The notes beneath the pieces were generated by a model that did no database searches, was not told the DNA's origin, and was given only the letters and a program-made list of their open reading frames with translations. The translations under genes and the position numbers were made by a program. This document shows, piece after piece, positions 37-40,971 of a DNA stretch of 41,386 bases. The DNA is taken from assembly GCA_030613505.1 (NCBI GenBank), contig JAUWLW010000003.1, positions 1 to 41,386 of the forward strand, read 5' to 3'. Positions within the stretch are counted from its first letter, which is position 1. Every line of letters starts with the position of its first letter. This stretch comes from Candidatus Zixiibacteriota bacterium (lineage in GTDB: Bacteria; RBG-13-66-14; B26-G2; WVWN01).

Positions 37-828
37 ATGAAGAAAACAGTTGTTATCATCTTAGCACTGGCCTTAGCCGCCGGGACCGCGTTCGCGGCCC
101 TGGGCACAATAGTCGCATCTTGGCCCTCGCCTGCGAATTACCCCATCGCCGCGGCGCGACCGAACAACGCGGCGTATTTTTGGCTCTACTGCAACACCTC
201 GCCCTACAGGATCTGGCAGGTCAACGCCGAAACTGGCTCTATAGTCACCTCCTACGTATCGCCGTTCACCAGCGCCACCCGCGGCCTTTCGTACAACTAC
301 AACGGCGGCGGCGGCTTGCCCAGCGGCAGCTACCTCTGGATAGGCAATTACTCCACCGACCGCATCTACCGCTGCAACTACGGCACCGGTAGCATCTACG
401 CCTCCATCCCGGCGAACCACGACATGTACGGCGGCCTCGCCGTTATGGCGACCGCCGACGGGGGCGCGGCCCCGACGCACATGCTGTCCTCCGACAGCTC
501 CCCCGCCATGACCTGGCGCCAGCACTTAACCACCGGCAGTATTTACAACTCGTTTGCGACCACGGGCGTCTACGACATCGCCTGGGACTGGCGCAATAAA
601 CTCGTCTGGCACAGGAACGGCAGCACCATATACGGGCGGACCACTACCGGTTCCGTCCAGGCGTCGTTCTCGTTCACGCGCGGCCCGGCGCTGGCGTTCT
701 CTTACTTCGGCCAGTACCTCTGGCTGGGTTCGACCACCGGCTACCACCGCATCTTCAAGATCCACTGCCCCATCAACGTCTCCGTCACGCCCACGTCGGT
801 GGGTAAAGTCAAGGCGATATTCAAGTAA
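37..828 (+). CDS. Secreted beta-propeller-like protein with C-terminal VKAxF[KR] tag
   Basis: 263 residues, function unknown. Residues 1-20 form a signal peptide (MKK, hydrophobic core, AFA cleavage site), so the protein leaves the cytoplasm. The body carries four repeats of a [T]-G-S-[IV]-x-x-S-[FYW] unit (TGSIVTSY, TGSIYASI, TGSIYNSF, TGSVQASF), each after an aromatic-rich stretch such as LWIGNYSTDRIY. This is the look of a WD/NHL-like beta-propeller; that fold is inferred. The last 14 residues, VTPTSVGKVKAIFK, match the ends of the proteins at 2099-2872 and 18804-19550. The body is clearly paralogous to 2099-2872 (shared LW-G, DRIY and AWD-RN segments). An AGGAGG ribosome site at 23-28 sets the start; the promoter lies outside the window. 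A hairpin terminator follows at 851-877, so this is probably the end of its transcript. Confidence 0.85.
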   Translation: MKKTVVIILALALAAGTAFAALGTIVASWPSPANYPIAAARPNNAAYFWLYCNTSPYRIWQVNAETGSIVTSYVSPFTSATRGLSYNYNGGGGLPSGSYLWIGNYSTDRIYRCNYGTGSIYASIPANHDMYGGLAVMATADGGAAPTHMLSSDSSPAMTWRQHLTTGSIYNSFATTGVYDIAWDWRNKLVWHRNGSTIYGRTTTGSVQASFSFTRGPALAFSYFGQYLWLGSTTGYHRIFKIHCPINVSVTPTSVGKVKAIFK

Positions 829-2098: not shown

Positions 2099-2872
2099 AT
2101 GAAACGCTTGGCGTTTATTTTAACGGCGCTGGTAATTATCGCCGGTTCTACCTCCCTGGCGCGTTTGGGCGACGTAAAGAGATCCTTCCCGGCGCCGGGC
2201 AACCAGGTCCGCGGCATGGCCCGCTCGACCATACGTTTGTTCGTAATCGATTACGGGAGCGCCACTAGGGTCTATCGCTTGTCCCCCGTCACCGGGTCCT
2301 CGTACGGCTCGTGGACCACATCTTTCAGCAATAAATGCTCCGGCCTCGCATTCTCCGACGGCGGCGTCCTCTGGATAGGCTGCGACGGCGAAGACCGCGT
2401 CTATAAATGCAAAGCCCTTACGGGGAGCGTTTATTACCACTGGAACGCCGGCCACCAACCCTACGGCGTAGCGCCGTTTTGCAATTCCGACGGCGGCATC
2501 GGCACCACCGCCATCTTCACCTCCGACTCCGCGCCGTCGTTCTGTTGGCGCCACAATATGACAAGCGGCAGCATTCTCTCGTCCTTTGGGATGGCGAGCG
2601 CAAGCTCCTTCGACATAGCCTGGGACCAGCGCAACAACCTCATATGGAAAGGCTCCCTCCCGAACGTGGTCTACGGGTACAATACCGCCGGTTCCGTCGC
2701 GGCTTCGTTCACCGTGCCCGGCCACTCCCCCCGCGGCCTGGCGTACTACAACCAGTACCTCTGGGTCGGATGCGACGCCAACGACCGCATCTACCAGGTC
2801 CATTGCCCGGGCGACATCACGTCCGACGTTTCGCCCGCTTCCTTCGGCGAAGTTAAAGCTTTATTCCGTTAA
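2099..2872 (+). CDS. Secreted beta-propeller-like protein with C-terminal VKAxFR tag, paralogue of 37-828
   Basis: 257 residues, function unknown. Signal peptide at residues 1-21 (MKRLAFILTALVIIAGSTSLA). Repeats of a G-S-x-x-x-S-[FW] unit (TGSSYGSW, TGSVYYHW, SGSILSSF, AGSVAASF) alternate with LWIGCDGEDRVY and LWVGCDANDRIY strands, giving at least four blade-like units. This and the collinear AWD-RNN-IW region show common ancestry with 37-828. Both also have an HCP triplet about 20 residues before the C-terminus. The final 14 residues, VSPASFGEVKALFR, form the tag shared with 37-828 and 18804-19550. The start has a GAGGAGGT ribosome site at 2081-2088. It is a single-gene transcript with its own promoter and terminator. 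Extracellular or surface location is inferred from the signal peptide only. Confidence 0.85.
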   Translation: MKRLAFILTALVIIAGSTSLARLGDVKRSFPAPGNQVRGMARSTIRLFVIDYGSATRVYRLSPVTGSSYGSWTTSFSNKCSGLAFSDGGVLWIGCDGEDRVYKCKALTGSVYYHWNAGHQPYGVAPFCNSDGGIGTTAIFTSDSAPSFCWRHNMTSGSILSSFGMASASSFDIAWDQRNNLIWKGSLPNVVYGYNTAGSVAASFTVPGHSPRGLAYYNQYLWVGCDANDRIYQVHCPGDITSDVSPASFGEVKALFR

Positions 2873-9924: not shown

Positions 9925-11148
9925 CTAATCCTCGCGGCCTCGTTTCCCGAGCCACGCTTCCAGACCCACGATCGACAAGTAAAAGTCGAACATCTCCTCT
10001 TTCAACTCGCGGGACGGCGAATCGCCCCGACGGCTATATTCCAACGCGACATCGAGTCGACTGTTCTCGTTGTTTCTGAACAGGTATCCCGCACCCACCG
10101 CTACACCCGTTTTGGCGAATTCGCCGTGCTCGGTAGAATACCAAGGCACGTACGACACGCCGGCACGGAAAGGCATCCGCCACAGGAAGAAAGATTTCCG
10201 AGCCGCCGTCAACCGCCCTTCGGCGCCGGCGTGAAACTCGACGGTATCGCGATAACCCAAACCCTCGCCGTCGACGGCAAACCGCGACCACGCCGTATAG
10301 CGCACGTCCGCGGCAAACCGGCCGCGCGGGCCGACGACGTACGCCGCCCCCAATCCCGCCGACCACGGCATCGCGAACCGGTGATCTTCCTCGTACTGCG
10401 TAGCGTACTCCGTAAAAACTGTTTCGTGCACGCGGTGGGTGCTGAATACCTCCAACTGCGCGCCCACCGAGAACTTATCCGTTACTAAATAGCCAGCCCC
10501 CAGAGCCCCCTTTACGCCTTTATATGCCGCCTCCAGGGTCTCCTCGATGCGTGAATAACCCTTTTCTTTGAATTCCTTGGTATATATTTCCTTGGGCGCG
10601 CCGAAGTCGTAGCCGGCAACGCCGCCCACGTACCACCGTTCGCCAAGGCGGCCCGCCAACCCCGCCGAAAACGAATAGACGGACCCGGTACCCTTGCGCC
10701 GACTAGTCCCCACAACCACGCCTTCGTATTCGAGCGGCCTCGTCAATTCGTAATTCTGGTTGAGCTCCTGGCGCAAGGCAAGCGACAGGGCGAGTGAACT
10801 CGACACCGGTATCGCCAATTCCGCCCGAGGTATGTCGTACGTAATTTCTACGCTCCTCCCCGCCGGCGTCTCGTACGAGTTGTACCCCCGGTACAAGGTG
10901 ACGCTAAAAACCGCACGCCCGTACGAAGCCGGTACCGCCGGGTTCGCGCCGTTAACGTTCGAACCGTCGAATAGACCTAACGCCGCGCCCCCCATACCGA
11001 CCGCGCGCGCGTCAAGGTCTATACCGGGCTCTCCCGGCGTACCCGCAGCCAAAATCGTATTGGCCAACGCCGGGCAAGCGACGAGTGCGAGCGCCGCCGA
11101 CGCAATAAGTACGATATATAATAACATCCTTTTCGAATCGGCCGCCAC
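9925..11148 (-). CDS. PorV/FadL-like outer membrane beta-barrel protein
   Basis: About 407 residues. The GTG at 11148 has GGAG at 11157-11160 with 8-base spacing and gives a good signal peptide (SKRMLLYIVLIASAALALVACPALA); the ATG at 11127 lacks a ribosome site. The mature start reads DLDARAVGMGGAALGLFDGSN--NPA, the hallmark of PorV/UPF0164-type barrels, which share a fold with FadL. The rest is alternating strands with many aromatic ends, consistent with a 14-strand barrel. PorV-type proteins in Bacteroidota shuttle type IX secretion substrates by binding their C-terminal domain; whether this one does is open. The gene overlaps the stop of the upstream lipoprotein gene's coding region by no more than a few bases and is co-transcribed with it and with ompH/skp. 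Confidence 0.75.
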   Translation of the reverse strand: MAADSKRMLLYIVLIASAALALVACPALANTILAAGTPGEPGIDLDARAVGMGGAALGLFDGSNVNGANPAVPASYGRAVFSVTLYRGYNSYETPAGRSVEITYDIPRAELAIPVSSSLALSLALRQELNQNYELTRPLEYEGVVVGTSRRKGTGSVYSFSAGLAGRLGERWYVGGVAGYDFGAPKEIYTKEFKEKGYSRIEETLEAAYKGVKGALGAGYLVTDKFSVGAQLEVFSTHRVHETVFTEYATQYEEDHRFAMPWSAGLGAAYVVGPRGRFAADVRYTAWSRFAVDGEGLGYRDTVEFHAGAEGRLTAARKSFFLWRMPFRAGVSYVPWYSTEHGEFAKTGVAVGAGYLFRNNENSRLDVALEYSRRGDSPSRELKEEMFDFYLSIVGLEAWLGKRGRED

Positions 11149-11153
11149 TATCA

Positions 11154-12467
11154 CTACTCCGTCGGCGCGTACCACGGTTCCGGCGGCAACGTATACTCGA
11201 TCTCCAGGAACGGTCTCCGGGCCGGGTCGCCGTTGTCTTTGGCCGCGAAACGTGGGAAAGCCTGCGCCGTGCTCTCGTCGGGCGCTTTTATGACGAGGCC
11301 GTAGTTGGGGTGCTTACCGGAGATCCACTCTTGGACGAGGGAGTTAACGTATAGGTCCACGTAACCCGGCGGTTCTTTCATAAACTCGCGGTCAATATAA
11401 GCGTAGTTATCGTGGAACTTCTGGAGCTCGAGTACATCCTGCTTCGCGCCCTCCTCGAACGCGGCAGTCAAGCGGTACACGGCGATACGAACGCGTTCGT
11501 CCCTGGCGGCAGGTAGATAAAAAAGGCGGAGCCGGGCCCGGGCCACCGACGCCGTCGCCGGGATACCGGTAGCAGCCGGTGAAAGGTTAAAATATAGCAA
11601 CACGCGGCGGGCGTAGCCGTTAAAAGAGCCGAAATCTAAGAACTCGTCGTAGCCGTGAACCTCGCCGCCGCCGAATTCGCCGCCGTACTCCGTTATGAAA
11701 CAATCCTTTTCGGGTAAAAGGACGCGATAAACTTTCTCGCCCTCGTCGTCTACGTAGGCGATCTCGAGGCGGGGCGCGTTAACCTTGCTGTACTGGTTGG
11801 TGGAGTAAAATTCCTTTATGCCCGCCCCAGCCGACTCCTCCTCGTCCTTCAACTTTAAAACGACGCCGTAATTACGGTACGGGTTAGCAAGCCACTCCAG
11901 CCCCAGCGCGGTAACGTCGAAGTTTACGTACTGGCGCTGGTACGAAGGTCGACCGATGACGGCATCGGCCACGGCGGGCCCATAGTCGCCGCCCTCTACG
12001 CTCCAATTCTCCTTGCGGCTCGCCCGCCACCACGTCGCGCGGTCCTCGTCGAAGTCGCGCCGGAGCGGCCGTACTTCGATAGTTACGTCGCCCTCGGCGT
12101 AAATATCGTCGTTCAAGCTGCCTGAAACGCGAAGATACGGCAAACTTAGGAACACGCCGCGGATTTTACTAATGGATACCTCTTTCGGAACGTCCCCAAC
12201 GTCGAAGTGTAAAAGGGTGCGGCTCCGAAACCGGTCGGGCGCGCCGTAACTCCCGACGGCCAGACGGTAATGCCGGCCGGTGGGGGCAAAGATGTCGTAA
12301 AAAGTGTCGCGCCACCCGACGTCGGCGGGATATAACGTTACTTTCTTAACCGGCCGATCCGGCGGTTGAAACCCTACCGGGTCGCTGGTAGGAGCGCCGC
12401 ACGACAACGCGACGAGTATACCCGCCGCCCAAAAAAGGCGGCGCGAAATTGAACTACCTTTCGTCAT
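11154..12467 (-). CDS. DNRLRE-domain lipoprotein
   Basis: 437 residues. Lipoprotein signal with lipobox ALSC (lipidated Cys about residue 23) followed by a short GAPTSDP linker. Two successive beta-sandwich units of the DNRLRE type are seen: unit 1 (about 45-235) has RSRTLLHFDV, YVNFDVTALGLEWL, NYGVVLKLKDE and LEIAYVD; unit 2 (about 255-430) has YARRVLLYFNLS, ARARLRLFYL, VDLYVNSLVQEWI, NYGLVIKAPDES and FLEIEYTL. These domains occur in surface proteins and often bind carbohydrates or pack against other domains; activity is unknown. It is the first gene of the envelope operon, with a promoter 46-73 bases upstream, and is followed at once by the PorV-like barrel, so a surface partnership is plausible. 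Confidence 0.82.
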   Translation of the reverse strand: MTKGSSISRRLFWAAGILVALSCGAPTSDPVGFQPPDRPVKKVTLYPADVGWRDTFYDIFAPTGRHYRLAVGSYGAPDRFRSRTLLHFDVGDVPKEVSISKIRGVFLSLPYLRVSGSLNDDIYAEGDVTIEVRPLRRDFDEDRATWWRASRKENWSVEGGDYGPAVADAVIGRPSYQRQYVNFDVTALGLEWLANPYRNYGVVLKLKDEEESAGAGIKEFYSTNQYSKVNAPRLEIAYVDDEGEKVYRVLLPEKDCFITEYGGEFGGGEVHGYDEFLDFGSFNGYARRVLLYFNLSPAATGIPATASVARARLRLFYLPAARDERVRIAVYRLTAAFEEGAKQDVLELQKFHDNYAYIDREFMKEPPGYVDLYVNSLVQEWISGKHPNYGLVIKAPDESTAQAFPRFAAKDNGDPARRPFLEIEYTLPPEPWYAPTE

Positions 12468-12612: not shown

Positions 12613-13545
12613 TTAACGGAAGTATTGTACCCAGCAGCAATAAGCGTCGACGACGTAAATAACGCACCGTTCGTTTATAGTTATACCGTACGGGTTAATA
12701 AACTCGCCCCTTCCAACGCCGCCGGAACCGAACTCCCCGACGAAACTCCCGTCCGACGTAAAATACTGGACGCGCCTGTTGCCGTTATCGACGACGAACA
12801 CGGTCCCGCCGTAGCCGACCGCGACCGCCATAGGCCCGTCAAACTCGCCGGGGCCGGAGCCGCTACTACCCCAACCGCCGAGGTAAGAACCGGTCGACGT
12901 GAAATATTGAACGCGGTCGTTCCCGGTATCGGCTACGTACACGTTACCGCGGGGCCCGAAGTTAATACCCAACGGCAACTGGAATTCGCCGGCCTCTTCG
13001 CCCCACGCGCCCCATCCTCCTATATACTTTCCCTCGGCGCCAAAATATTGTACGCGGCCGTCGTAATCTATTACATATACCGCCCCCCCTGGTGAAACGG
13101 CTACCGCCGCCGGCCCGACGAAGTGGCCTTCGCCTTCACCGTACGAACCCCAAGAACCTAACAAGCTACCCGCGCTGGTAAAATAAACGATGCGGTTCTT
13201 ACGCTGATCGCCGACATAGACGACGCCGTTCGGCGCAACGGCTATGCTCCTCGGTGACCACTCGTTGGGCAATAAATCCCATTTACCCAGGAAACTACCC
13301 GCCGGCGTAAAATATTGAACCCGGTAATTATACGTATCGGCTACGTAAACGTCGCCGTTAGGGGCAACGGCTACGCCGTACGGTTTGTAAAACTCGCCGT
13401 CGTCGTGTCCCGGGCAACCCCACCTGGCGATAAACGCCGGCACCTTGCCCTTGACGTCGCCGAGCGGCGTTTCCTCGGAACACGCCACAATAACGACGAC
13501 AGCGGCCACGGCCCCCAATTTAAGAAACGTAATTACTATTTTCAT
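12613..13545 (-). CDS. NHL-repeat beta-propeller lipoprotein
   Basis: 310 residues. Lipoprotein signal with lipobox IVAC (Cys at about 22). Six NHL repeats, each with the pattern P-G-[IV]-x-[VI]-x-x-x-G-x-[VI]-[YF]-V-x-D and N-R-[VI]-Q-Y-F, fill the mature protein, for example VAVAPNGDVYVADTYNYRVQYF; the final one ends at the C-terminus (VIYVVDAYCCWVQYF). Six blades should close a propeller with central-channel binding. Ligand unknown. It follows rocD by 22 bases with an AAAGGGGGG ribosome site, although no functional link to rocD is evident, and a strong terminator follows. Unlike the propeller-like proteins at 37-828 and 2099-2872 it lacks the C-terminal tag. Confidence 0.87.
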   Translation of the reverse strand: MKIVITFLKLGAVAAVVVIVACSEETPLGDVKGKVPAFIARWGCPGHDDGEFYKPYGVAVAPNGDVYVADTYNYRVQYFTPAGSFLGKWDLLPNEWSPRSIAVAPNGVVYVGDQRKNRIVYFTSAGSLLGSWGSYGEGEGHFVGPAAVAVSPGGAVYVIDYDGRVQYFGAEGKYIGGWGAWGEEAGEFQLPLGINFGPRGNVYVADTGNDRVQYFTSTGSYLGGWGSSGSGPGEFDGPMAVAVGYGGTVFVVDNGNRRVQYFTSDGSFVGEFGSGGVGRGEFINPYGITINERCVIYVVDAYCCWVQYFR

Positions 13546-18803: not shown

Positions 18804-19550
18804 TTACCGGTACATCGCCTTGACTTTGCCGAGCGAAGCGGGTTCGACGCCTACGTTATAGCCGTCCCACATGAAATTAAGGATGTTGGCGTAGAGTGTC
18901 TGCACGGAAACTAGTTTGCAGTGAATCTTGTAGCCGCTGATTACGCCGTGTTTGTCGGGCGCTACGCAAATCCCGGCCTGCCCGGGAGTCGACGTGGCGG
19001 TCCAGCCCGTTACCGCCGGGGTAGCGGTAGTGAGCGTTAATGGGTGGCCGGCGGTACCGACGCCCGCGTTGCCGTATGTCCAGCTGGTAATACCCTTGCA
19101 AATAGGGTGGCTTGCGACCCACGTGTAATGCGGTTTCGGCGGCATCGTTAAACGGCGCGTGCAAGTGACGCCCATTGCGCTTTTGATGGGGTTTTCGAGG
19201 CTGTAGTGCATACCCCAGTCGTTGAAGAAGAACGGCCCACGTTTCTTGTTGTACCAATCGGCCATAGCCTGGTAATCGGAAGTATTCAACGACCGATAGT
19301 TGTTGGTGGCATAGAGAGCCATATCCCAGGGCCCTCCGGTTTTCAAAGCCGAGACAAACGCGGAAATTTGGTTATCGGTGTACGACGTGACCGCGGATTT
19401 TGGGAAAGTAGTTTTTATGGTCGGGACGAAGTACGAGCCGTAGCCGCCCAATATGCCGTAACAGACGAGGATTTTACCAGGGTCCGCCGCCTGCGCCAAC
19501 GCCGCCGTGCCGCATAGCAACGCTACGGTAATTACGAAAATCTTCCTCAT
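18804..19550 (-). CDS. Secreted protein of unknown function with C-terminal VKAxYR tag
   Basis: 248 residues. Signal peptide at 1-22 (MRKIFVITVALLCGTAALAQA). The mature protein starts KILVCYGILGGYGSYF, then DMALYATNNYRSL, GPFFFNDWGMHYSL and a late HPLTLTTATPAVTGW; the order of strands suggests a Rossmann-like or class I amidotransferase-like fold, but no catalytic triad is evident, so no function is assigned. The body is unrelated to the propeller-like proteins near the left edge, yet its last 14 residues, VEPASLGKVKAMYR, are the same tag. Good AGGAGG 5 bases before the ATG. Its promoter (19602-19630) abuts the rnpB 3' end. Single-gene transcript. Confidence 0.85.
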   Translation of the reverse strand: MRKIFVITVALLCGTAALAQAADPGKILVCYGILGGYGSYFVPTIKTTFPKSAVTSYTDNQISAFVSALKTGGPWDMALYATNNYRSLNTSDYQAMADWYNKKRGPFFFNDWGMHYSLENPIKSAMGVTCTRRLTMPPKPHYTWVASHPICKGITSWTYGNAGVGTAGHPLTLTTATPAVTGWTATSTPGQAGICVAPDKHGVISGYKIHCKLVSVQTLYANILNFMWDGYNVGVEPASLGKVKAMYR

Positions 19551-19641: not shown

Positions 19642-20042
19642 GCAACCTGCGGAAGGCGCCCTGTAATCCGGGTTCTGTATCCCTCCTTGCGGAGGGACGG
19701 CGGCCATTCATCTGGGCCGGACGTCGCCGCCCGGCTCGAGCGGCCTACCCGCGGCGGCGCGTTCTCTCGAACGCTTGACCCGGGCCGGTCCCGCCGCCTA
19801 TTCGGCCTTGCTTCGGGTGGGGTTTGCCTTGCCGGCGTCGTTGCCGAAGCCGCGGTGAGCTCTTACCTCGCCTTTTCACCCTTGCCTGTGCGCCGCGCGA
19901 AGCGGGCCATCGGCGGTATGTTTTCTGTGGCACTTTCCGTCGCCTTGCGACGCCCGGGTGTTACCCGGCACCCTGCCCGGCGAAGCCCGGAATTTCCTCG
20001 GCCTGCGCTTTACGCGCGGCCGCGGCCGCCCGGGCACCTTCC
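19642..20042 (-). ncRNA. rnpB: RNase P RNA, bacterial type A
   Basis: About 400 nucleotides, the catalytic RNA that matures tRNA 5' ends. The ends pair as helix P1: 5' GGAAGGUGCCC (20042-20032) with 3' GGGCGCCUUCC (19661-19651), one G-U pair. Universal core blocks are present in order on the minus strand: GAGGAAATTCCGGGC (about 20000-19985), GGGCAGGGTGCC, GGAAAGTGCCACAGAAA, CCGCCGATGGCCCGC (about 19918-19904), AGGCAAGGGTGAAA, GAGGTAAGAGCTCACCG, AGCAAGGCCGAATAGG, GGCCCAGATGAATG (about 19718-19705) and ACAGAACCCGG (about 19678-19668). The layout matches the ancestral A type. The 3' end is estimated; no strong T-tailed terminator was seen. Confidence 0.96.
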
Positions 20043-34941: not shown

Positions 34942-35499
34942 CTAGATAAGTTTATCGAAAACTTCCTGGTAAGGGGCGGGAATAACGGCGGTCGCGACGA
35001 GCAGGCCGCGCTTCGCCGCTTCCGCGGCGCCCGCCGCTACCGCCGCAGCTACGGCCGCCGTCTCCCCCACCATGGTCACGAAACCTTTTCCGCCGATGCC
35101 GGTCCCGAGCCTAATTTCGACGAGCGTGACCGGCGCCGCTTTCACCGCGGCGTCCGCGGCCAACAGCGAGGAGGCTAGAGAGAACGTCTCCACGACCCCC
35201 AACGCGGCCTTCTCGGGCACGACCACCGTCCCGGCCGCGGCCGCCATAACTTGCTCGTGAACGTTAGGGATTACGAAGTCGTCGACGTAATGCCCTCGCC
35301 CCATTTCCTTGCCCGCGGCGACCGCCGATTTCACCGCGGCCACGGCCCCCGCGACGAGCCCTATATACTTCCCGGAGCACGACGTCCGCGACGCCAGGAG
35401 CCGCACCTCGGCTTCCTTAACCATCGCGTCCACCGCCTCGATGCCGCGGGCGATGGACGAGAACTCTACTAAGCCTATGGCCTCTTCGCGCGCCGCCAA
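34942..35499 (-). CDS. pduT: PduT-like tandem BMC-domain shell protein (BMC-T) with Fe-S pore
   Basis: 185 residues, two BMC domains (1-90 and 95-180; AIGLVEFSSIARGIEAVDAM and ALGVVETFSLASSLLAADAA). Shell trimer subunit. PduT carries a [4Fe-4S] cluster at the trimer axis through a Cys in the first domain; here Cys41 in RTSCSGKYIG is at that place. This is the shell electron port that pairs with PduS. The start is a TTG at 35499 with AAGGA 7 bases upstream; no better ATG gives the complete first strand. It follows the TPR gene with no gap. Confidence 0.9.
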   Translation of the reverse strand: MAAREEAIGLVEFSSIARGIEAVDAMVKEAEVRLLASRTSCSGKYIGLVAGAVAAVKSAVAAGKEMGRGHYVDDFVIPNVHEQVMAAAAGTVVVPEKAALGVVETFSLASSLLAADAAVKAAPVTLVEIRLGTGIGGKGFVTMVGETAAVAAAVAAGAAEAAKRGLLVATAVIPAPYQEVFDKLI

Positions 35500-40665: not shown

Positions 40666-40971
40666 TTACGCCTTCTTGGCCGGTAGGACTTCCTCCGGCA
40701 ATATAAACTCTACCGCGTCGTCCGGGCGCGGGATTACATGGACCGAGACGAGTTCGCCGATCTTGGCGGCGGCTGCGGCGCCCGCTTCGGTCGCGGCCTT
40801 CACGGCCCCGGTCTCGCCGCGGACCATCACGCTCACGAGGCCTCCGCCGACGCGAACCTTATCCATGAGCCGCACGCTTGCAGCCTTCACCATCGCGTCC
40901 GCCGCTTCGATCGCCGCCACCACACCGCGGGTCTCGATCATCCCGAGAGCCATCTCCGTTCTGGCAGGCAT
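40666..40971 (-). CDS. BMC-H (PduA/EutM-like) hexameric shell protein
   Basis: 101 residues. Single BMC domain: [60 protein letters not shown] and [15 protein letters not shown], the strongest match to PduA/EutM/CcmK-type proteins. These hexamers tile the shell facets; the central pore is lined by the GGG loop, where PduA has GSG, so pore size and charge could differ. Start ATG 40971 with AAAGGAG upstream. It lies immediately after the partial membrane gene. Assignment to the family is firm. Confidence 0.96.

Follow-up and report, generated by a model that had tools for sequence, protein, structure and literature searches.

The window, meaning the whole stretch of 41,386 nucleotides analyzed here, encodes three secreted proteins that carry a similar short tag at the C terminus, namely a 248-aa protein and two proteins at the left edge, P1 and P2 (Table 1). 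Directly next to the gene of the 248-aa protein, and on the same strand, lies a complete RNase P RNA of the bacterial class A type, at 19648–20041 (-).

Table 1. Tagged proteins of the window, their tags, and an untagged protein for contrast.
Feature	Position	Strand	Basis
Gene of the secreted 248-aa protein with C-terminal tag	18804..19550	(-)	ORF
Tag of the 248-aa protein (last 14 residues), VEPASLGKVKAMYR	18807..18848	(-)	BLASTP, family consensus
Signal-peptide-like N terminus of the 248-aa protein, about residues 1-22	19485..19550	(-)	Sequence, crude hydropathy rule
P1, tagged secreted protein homologous to P2	37..828	(+)	ORF, BLASTP
Tag of P1, VTPTSVGKVKAIFK	784..825	(+)	Sequence; served as search query
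P2, tagged secreted beta-propeller protein	2099..2872	(+)	Two-sequence model, Foldseek
Tag of P2, VSPASFGEVKALFR	2828..2869	(+)	BLASTP
Untagged NHL-repeat protein, lipobox-like N terminus (VIVACSE), end ..WVQYFR	12613..13545	(-)	Natural contrast

In a BLASTP comparison of the three window proteins, P1 proved homologous to P2 (37% over 269 columns, E 9e-53). The first-pass annotation had claimed that the 248-aa protein has only its tail in common with them, and BLASTP agrees: its last 14 residues align with those of P2 without a gap (9/14 identical, E 0.004), and beyond the tail a single chance-level piece was found (E 3.5). The match to P1 is limited to a 42-residue C-terminal piece (E 0.001), 8 of the 14 tail residues being equal when counted by hand. 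Once the last 16 residues were removed from the 248-aa protein, the similarity to P1 and P2 was gone (best E 1.4).

The 248-aa protein was matched neither by Pfam (E<=1) nor by NCBIfam (E<=5), and a PDB search with a profile of its homologs, which are present in six genomes (G000, G001, G005, G007, G011, and G013), returned nothing at E<=1. Modelled alone, the protein reached a pLDDT of 31, and this useless model was excluded from the fold searches; a ThuA/GATase-like body was an impression from reading the sequence and is not claimed. A two-sequence model of P2 (mean pLDDT 65) found its best Foldseek match in the glutaminyl cyclase 3mbr (E 1.8e-9), together with many NHL and WD propellers. 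The tails had also been expected to form the same small folded beta unit, which the P2 model does not bear out: residues 241-257 have pLDDT below 50 and a weak helix call only, and the P2 tail is apparently flexible in this model.

Used as a query, the P1 tail matched at least 129 times in the window's genome, a lower bound because P2 itself was missed, and a search with a profile of the Leu form of the tag scored at least 150 candidates. In the stretches fetched around the matches, 132 ORFs end in the tag (134 pattern matches minus two plainly non-tags), with the consensus [AG]-V-x-P-[AT]-S-[LVIF]-G-[RK]-V-K-A-L-[FY]-[RK]-COOH. Lys or Arg occupies position -4 in all 132 of these, and Gly is found in 130; position -1 is Phe or Tyr in 127, 125 have Ser at -9, and 124 have Pro at -11. 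Of the 132, 126 end in ..VKALF plus one residue followed by the stop. To count the strict motif [ST][LFVIMW]G.[VIL]K[AS].[FY], the fetched stretches were read as 2970 distinct stop-bounded ORFs with 385,355 residues in total, in which it occurs 119 times within three residues of an ORF end and 0 times elsewhere; as the stretches were picked for tag matches, the 119 terminal occurrences are selected and the zero elsewhere is not. The reversed sequences of the same ORF set contained the motif neither terminally nor elsewhere. By a crude hydropathy rule, 101/132 tagged ORFs have a signal-peptide-like start, and several of the other 31 look truncated by contig or stretch ends. One paralog group of genome G000 (loci L015, L036, L062, and L064) has tags ending in Tyr-Tyr (..VKALYY) rather than Phe/Tyr-Arg, a possible sub-dialect inside one genome.

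That the tail is a movable module, as the first-pass annotation had further suggested, is supported by the diversity of the bodies. Single-linkage BLAST clustering placed 124 tagged bodies longer than 80 aa in 13 clusters (92, 18, 2, 2, 2, and eight singletons), of which the largest includes the propellers and, by its linkage, joins dissimilar members. Most of the bodies scanned have no Pfam match over cut-off, and those found were to cupredoxin, InhA-like MAM, and PSII_BNR families, the cupredoxin and InhA-like MAM bodies being unrelated to propellers. Among 30 NHL-type proteins with a signal-like start, 27 carry the tag by pattern, one the variant SLGRVKTLFR, and two no tag, one of the two being the lipobox-bearing protein of the window; an ending in ..VQYF.. 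such as it has precedes the tag in tagged NHL proteins. A lipobox-like N terminus was observed by a loose pattern in 5/30 of these NHL proteins. Another (GGGCANP, by eye) was noted in a tagged protein of locus L139 (genome G082), which is possibly both lipid-anchored and tagged, judging from its sequence.

The window's organism is a relative of Coatesbacteria, as judged from loci whose proteins are related to one tagged family, the nearest named of which belong to Coatesbacteria bin961 and to a bin labelled Zixiibacteriota. The Leu-form profile gave from 125 to at least 150 matches in each of four genomes of the genus, then 53, 26, and 8 in other members of the order or class; the phylum's other family yielded 0-4. 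The drop in that family arises because the homologs there end in a Trp-form variant: homologs of the 248-aa protein have an inserted domain of about 130 aa and end in TTWGAIKAGF and similar sequences (..TTWGAIKAxF), so that the tag stays at the very end despite the domain that precedes it. Correspondingly, a Trp-form profile matched 21-49 times per genome in all seven genomes of this family. Taken together, the homologs with the extra domain and the Trp-form counts indicate that the tag remains terminal and its dialect shifts by lineage.

Type IX secretion (T9SS) machinery is encoded in G000, the window's own genome, in which SprA scored 311 bits against TIGR04189 (equivalog cut-off 200), a PorU-like protein 416 bits, just under the cut-off of 420, and a PorV-family protein, encoded by the gene adjoining the PorU-like one, 131 bits (cut-off 90). 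The SprA_N domain was not listed when the cut G000 SprA protein was scanned against Pfam by hmmscan at E<=0.001, unlike in the genome-level SprA_N search, and this model is weak in the phylum (E 0.008 in G004). It matched 12/14 genomes of the phylum, the exceptions being G002 (78% complete), which has at least 150 tag matches, C25 peptidases, and 13 PorV-family matches, and the tag-bearing G012 (70% complete). The PorV family was over its cut-off in 33/33 tag-bearing genomes examined, with 6-18 matches each. In addition, matches to the T9SS type A domain and C25 peptidases were both found in 14/14 genomes of the phylum.

A mixed tag profile (E<=0.05, about 24 candidates scored per genome) was then applied to 386 genomes and matched 67, comprising 14/14 of the phylum and 53/372 outside it, where 19 genomes had at least four matches. 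SprA_N matched 113/386 genomes (101/372 outside the phylum), including 49/53 of the tag-matching genomes outside the phylum (Fisher p 5e-28) and 19/19 of those with at least four tag matches (Fisher p 5e-12). The association also holds by family (11/11, p 7e-7), kinship being handled by counting families alone, and shared ancestry of the SprA-bearing lineages may account for part of it. The four tag-matching genomes lacking an SprA_N match comprise three with a single marginal and partial match (E about 0.03; G021, G056, and G088, in frames of 50, 1172, and 607 aa, respectively) and G116 (98% complete), which has two tag matches and whose relative G253 has both tag and SprA_N. At the threshold used, 52 of the 101 SprA-positive genomes outside the phylum had no tag match.

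When 30 genomes with a single tag match were re-examined, many of the matches proved to be one conserved small protein ending in TWGSIKAMFR or close to it, which we read from its sequence as a probable signal peptide followed by an FN3-like body. This protein is common to 14/16 loci from SprA-positive, single-match genomes, the 14 coming from ten families and 15 of the 16 loci having been picked for alike-looking proteins; examples lie at L277:2763-3155, L278:7403-7834, L281:8023-8469, and L284:5038-5454, with ten more. No Pfam family was over cut-off in the four such proteins scanned, and clustering of the neighbours in the 16 loci revealed no recognisable conserved neighbour that points to T9SS.

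The tag and the type A domain are interchangeable ends in two pairs of adjacent paralogs. In genome G112, the neighbours L234m7190, which bears the tag and ends in SVEHTTWGGIKSLFR, and L234m6006, which bears the type A domain, are 37% identical over 479 columns, the similarity beginning at the signal peptide and running through the whole body. In genome G352, the tagged L231m1897 and the type A-bearing L231m2642 match at 44% over 195 columns, the length of the shorter gene. From their sequences, the G112 pair appears beta-helix-like and the G352 pair lamin-tail-like. We regard this exchange of ends as the most telling result for a link between the tag and T9SS. More broadly, comparison with 95 type A bodies gave a match for 21/289 tagged bodies, in 8 cases to one and the same beta-helix protein. 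By a domain model built in this analysis, the type A domain was present in 0/302 tagged ORFs.

Like the tag, the type A domain (TIGR04183/PF18962) is C-terminal, movable, and found on Sec-exported cargo in SprA-bearing genomes, but it is an Ig-like domain of 70-100 residues as against about 14 for the tag. Between its end (..TRRLVVSR) and the tag there is neither a clear alignment nor clear homology; comparison by eye of the tag with the first or last strand of the domain yielded no verdict, and the tag is not claimed to be a shortened type A domain. The three window proteins had no TIGR04183 match in NCBIfam and no Pfam match, and are thus not assigned to type A. The type B (TIGR04131/PF13585) and type C domains are likewise alternative C-terminal signals of one system, but they are about 100 residues or longer, and no match to either was found in the tagged proteins scanned. 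Tails of PEP-CTERM/exosortase, LPXTG/sortase, MYXO-CTERM, and GlyGly-CTERM proteins resemble the tag in that they too are short regions of homology at the very C-terminal end of many unrelated exported proteins. Those tails have a transmembrane helix and a basic end, whereas the tag has no hydrophobic helix and nothing follows ..VKALF plus one residue in 126/132 ORFs. Cargo peptides of encapsulins and microcompartments are also short C-terminal targeting peptides; they work in the cytoplasm, whereas most of the tagged proteins begin with a signal-peptide-like stretch. A likeness to the outer-membrane beta-signal was weighed by hand and set aside, as the spacing did not fit. In none of the proteins scanned was the tag covered by a Pfam or NCBIfam family, and no description of it was found in a literature search outside subscription papers and preprints. 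A scan of viral_contigs gave no relative.

The tag is a real and widespread element, strictly terminal, common to unrelated bodies, conserved as protein, and associated with SprA-bearing genomes. We consider it probable that it is a movable C-terminal sorting signal, in effect a minimal T9SS export signal, with the dependence on T9SS being the part that we infer. The signal-like starts of the tagged ORFs and the strictly terminal tag correspond to the signal peptide and C-terminal sorting signal expected of T9SS cargo, and the SprA of genome G000 to the translocon. A tagged protein would cross the inner membrane by Sec, and in the periplasm its tail would be recognised by SprA and a PorV-family carrier. 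In published reports, 22 residues from the end of the HBP35 domain are enough for export and the last 13 are needed, notably the motif-E lysines (PMC10202324, PMC4804311), a Lys conserved in the domain contacts PorV (PMC10994853), and the type B signal has its own carriers (PMC10202324). As the type A domain occurs in all genomes of the phylum and about half of the SprA-positive genomes outside it have no tag match, the tag is not required for T9SS. A broader proposal, on which our judgment is evenly divided, is that a minimal code some ten residues long, [ST]-[WLVI]-G-x-[IV]-K-[AS]-x-[FY], is an old T9SS signal in a class of its own, present in at least 11 families beyond Coatesbacteria, single-copy in some lineages and on more than 100 proteins per genome in Coatesbacteria, and that the Ig-like domain is dispensable for type IX export.

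Several other explanations have to be set against a T9SS signal. The most serious, which we nevertheless consider unlikely, is that the tag serves a separate, undescribed sorting or anchoring pathway, involving a dedicated protease, transpeptidase, or outer-membrane receptor, and that the presence of T9SS in the same lineages is coincidental. Such a pathway would fit the tag-rich G002 and G012, which gave no SprA_N match, the presence of a type A domain in every genome of the phylum, and the absence of a clear sequence likeness between that domain and the tag; it leaves unexplained why, outside the phylum, SprA_N accompanies the tag in every tag-rich genome and in nearly all tag-matching ones, and why adjacent paralogs swap the tag for a type A domain. 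The same two results, the alternation on adjacent paralogs and the tracking of SprA, would be unexpected if the tag retained proteins in the periplasm or marked them for turnover or chaperone binding instead of export, a reading that suits a short, flexible, cationic C-terminal peptide and the lipobox-like N termini of some tagged proteins, but that we hold to be very improbable.

Two further explanations concern the nature of the tail itself. A mobile element or repeat at the DNA level, merely read as protein, might be suggested by more than 100 loci with unrelated genes upstream, but codon analysis of 126 tags whose aromatic residue is followed by one more led us to reject it as having practically no chance of being correct. 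The 42-base coding stretches are distinct in 126/126 cases, with a mean DNA identity of 64% and a third-position entropy of 0.8-1.9 bits; both TCN and AGY codons are used for Ser, the stops are TAA in 59, TAG in 54, and TGA in 13 cases, and the 30 bases after the stop show no conservation. A scan of viral_contigs gave no relative. It is also highly improbable, though slightly less so, that the 248-aa protein, P1, and P2 have one fold throughout and that the tail alone is still recognisable: apart from the homology of P1 and P2 to each other nothing was found in its support, P2 models as a beta-propeller, and other tagged bodies are cupredoxin or InhA-MAM over Pfam cut-offs. For the 248-aa protein, which has no confident structure, the case against one fold rests on sequence comparison.

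If T9SS reads the tag, about a dozen residues would suffice as the signal for export by this complex outer-membrane machine, and what the system recognises would become directly testable. A surface or secreted fate could then be assigned to hundreds of hypothetical proteins now without annotation, and the dialects of the signal, such as the Leu and Trp forms, would differ among related lineages.

Elsewhere in the window, the gene at 9925-11175 (-) was considered as a PorV and rejected (16.5 bits for the PorV family, cut-off 90); it encodes a FadL-like outer-membrane protein related to BamG (125 bits, cut-off 250) and belongs to a gene run that also includes OmpH/Skp-like and Lpx-like genes, both named by sequence reading. 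Bacterial-microcompartment shell-like proteins, recognised by eye, are encoded at 34942-35499 and 40666-40971 (-), near 2-oxoacid oxidoreductase-like and Rnf-like genes.
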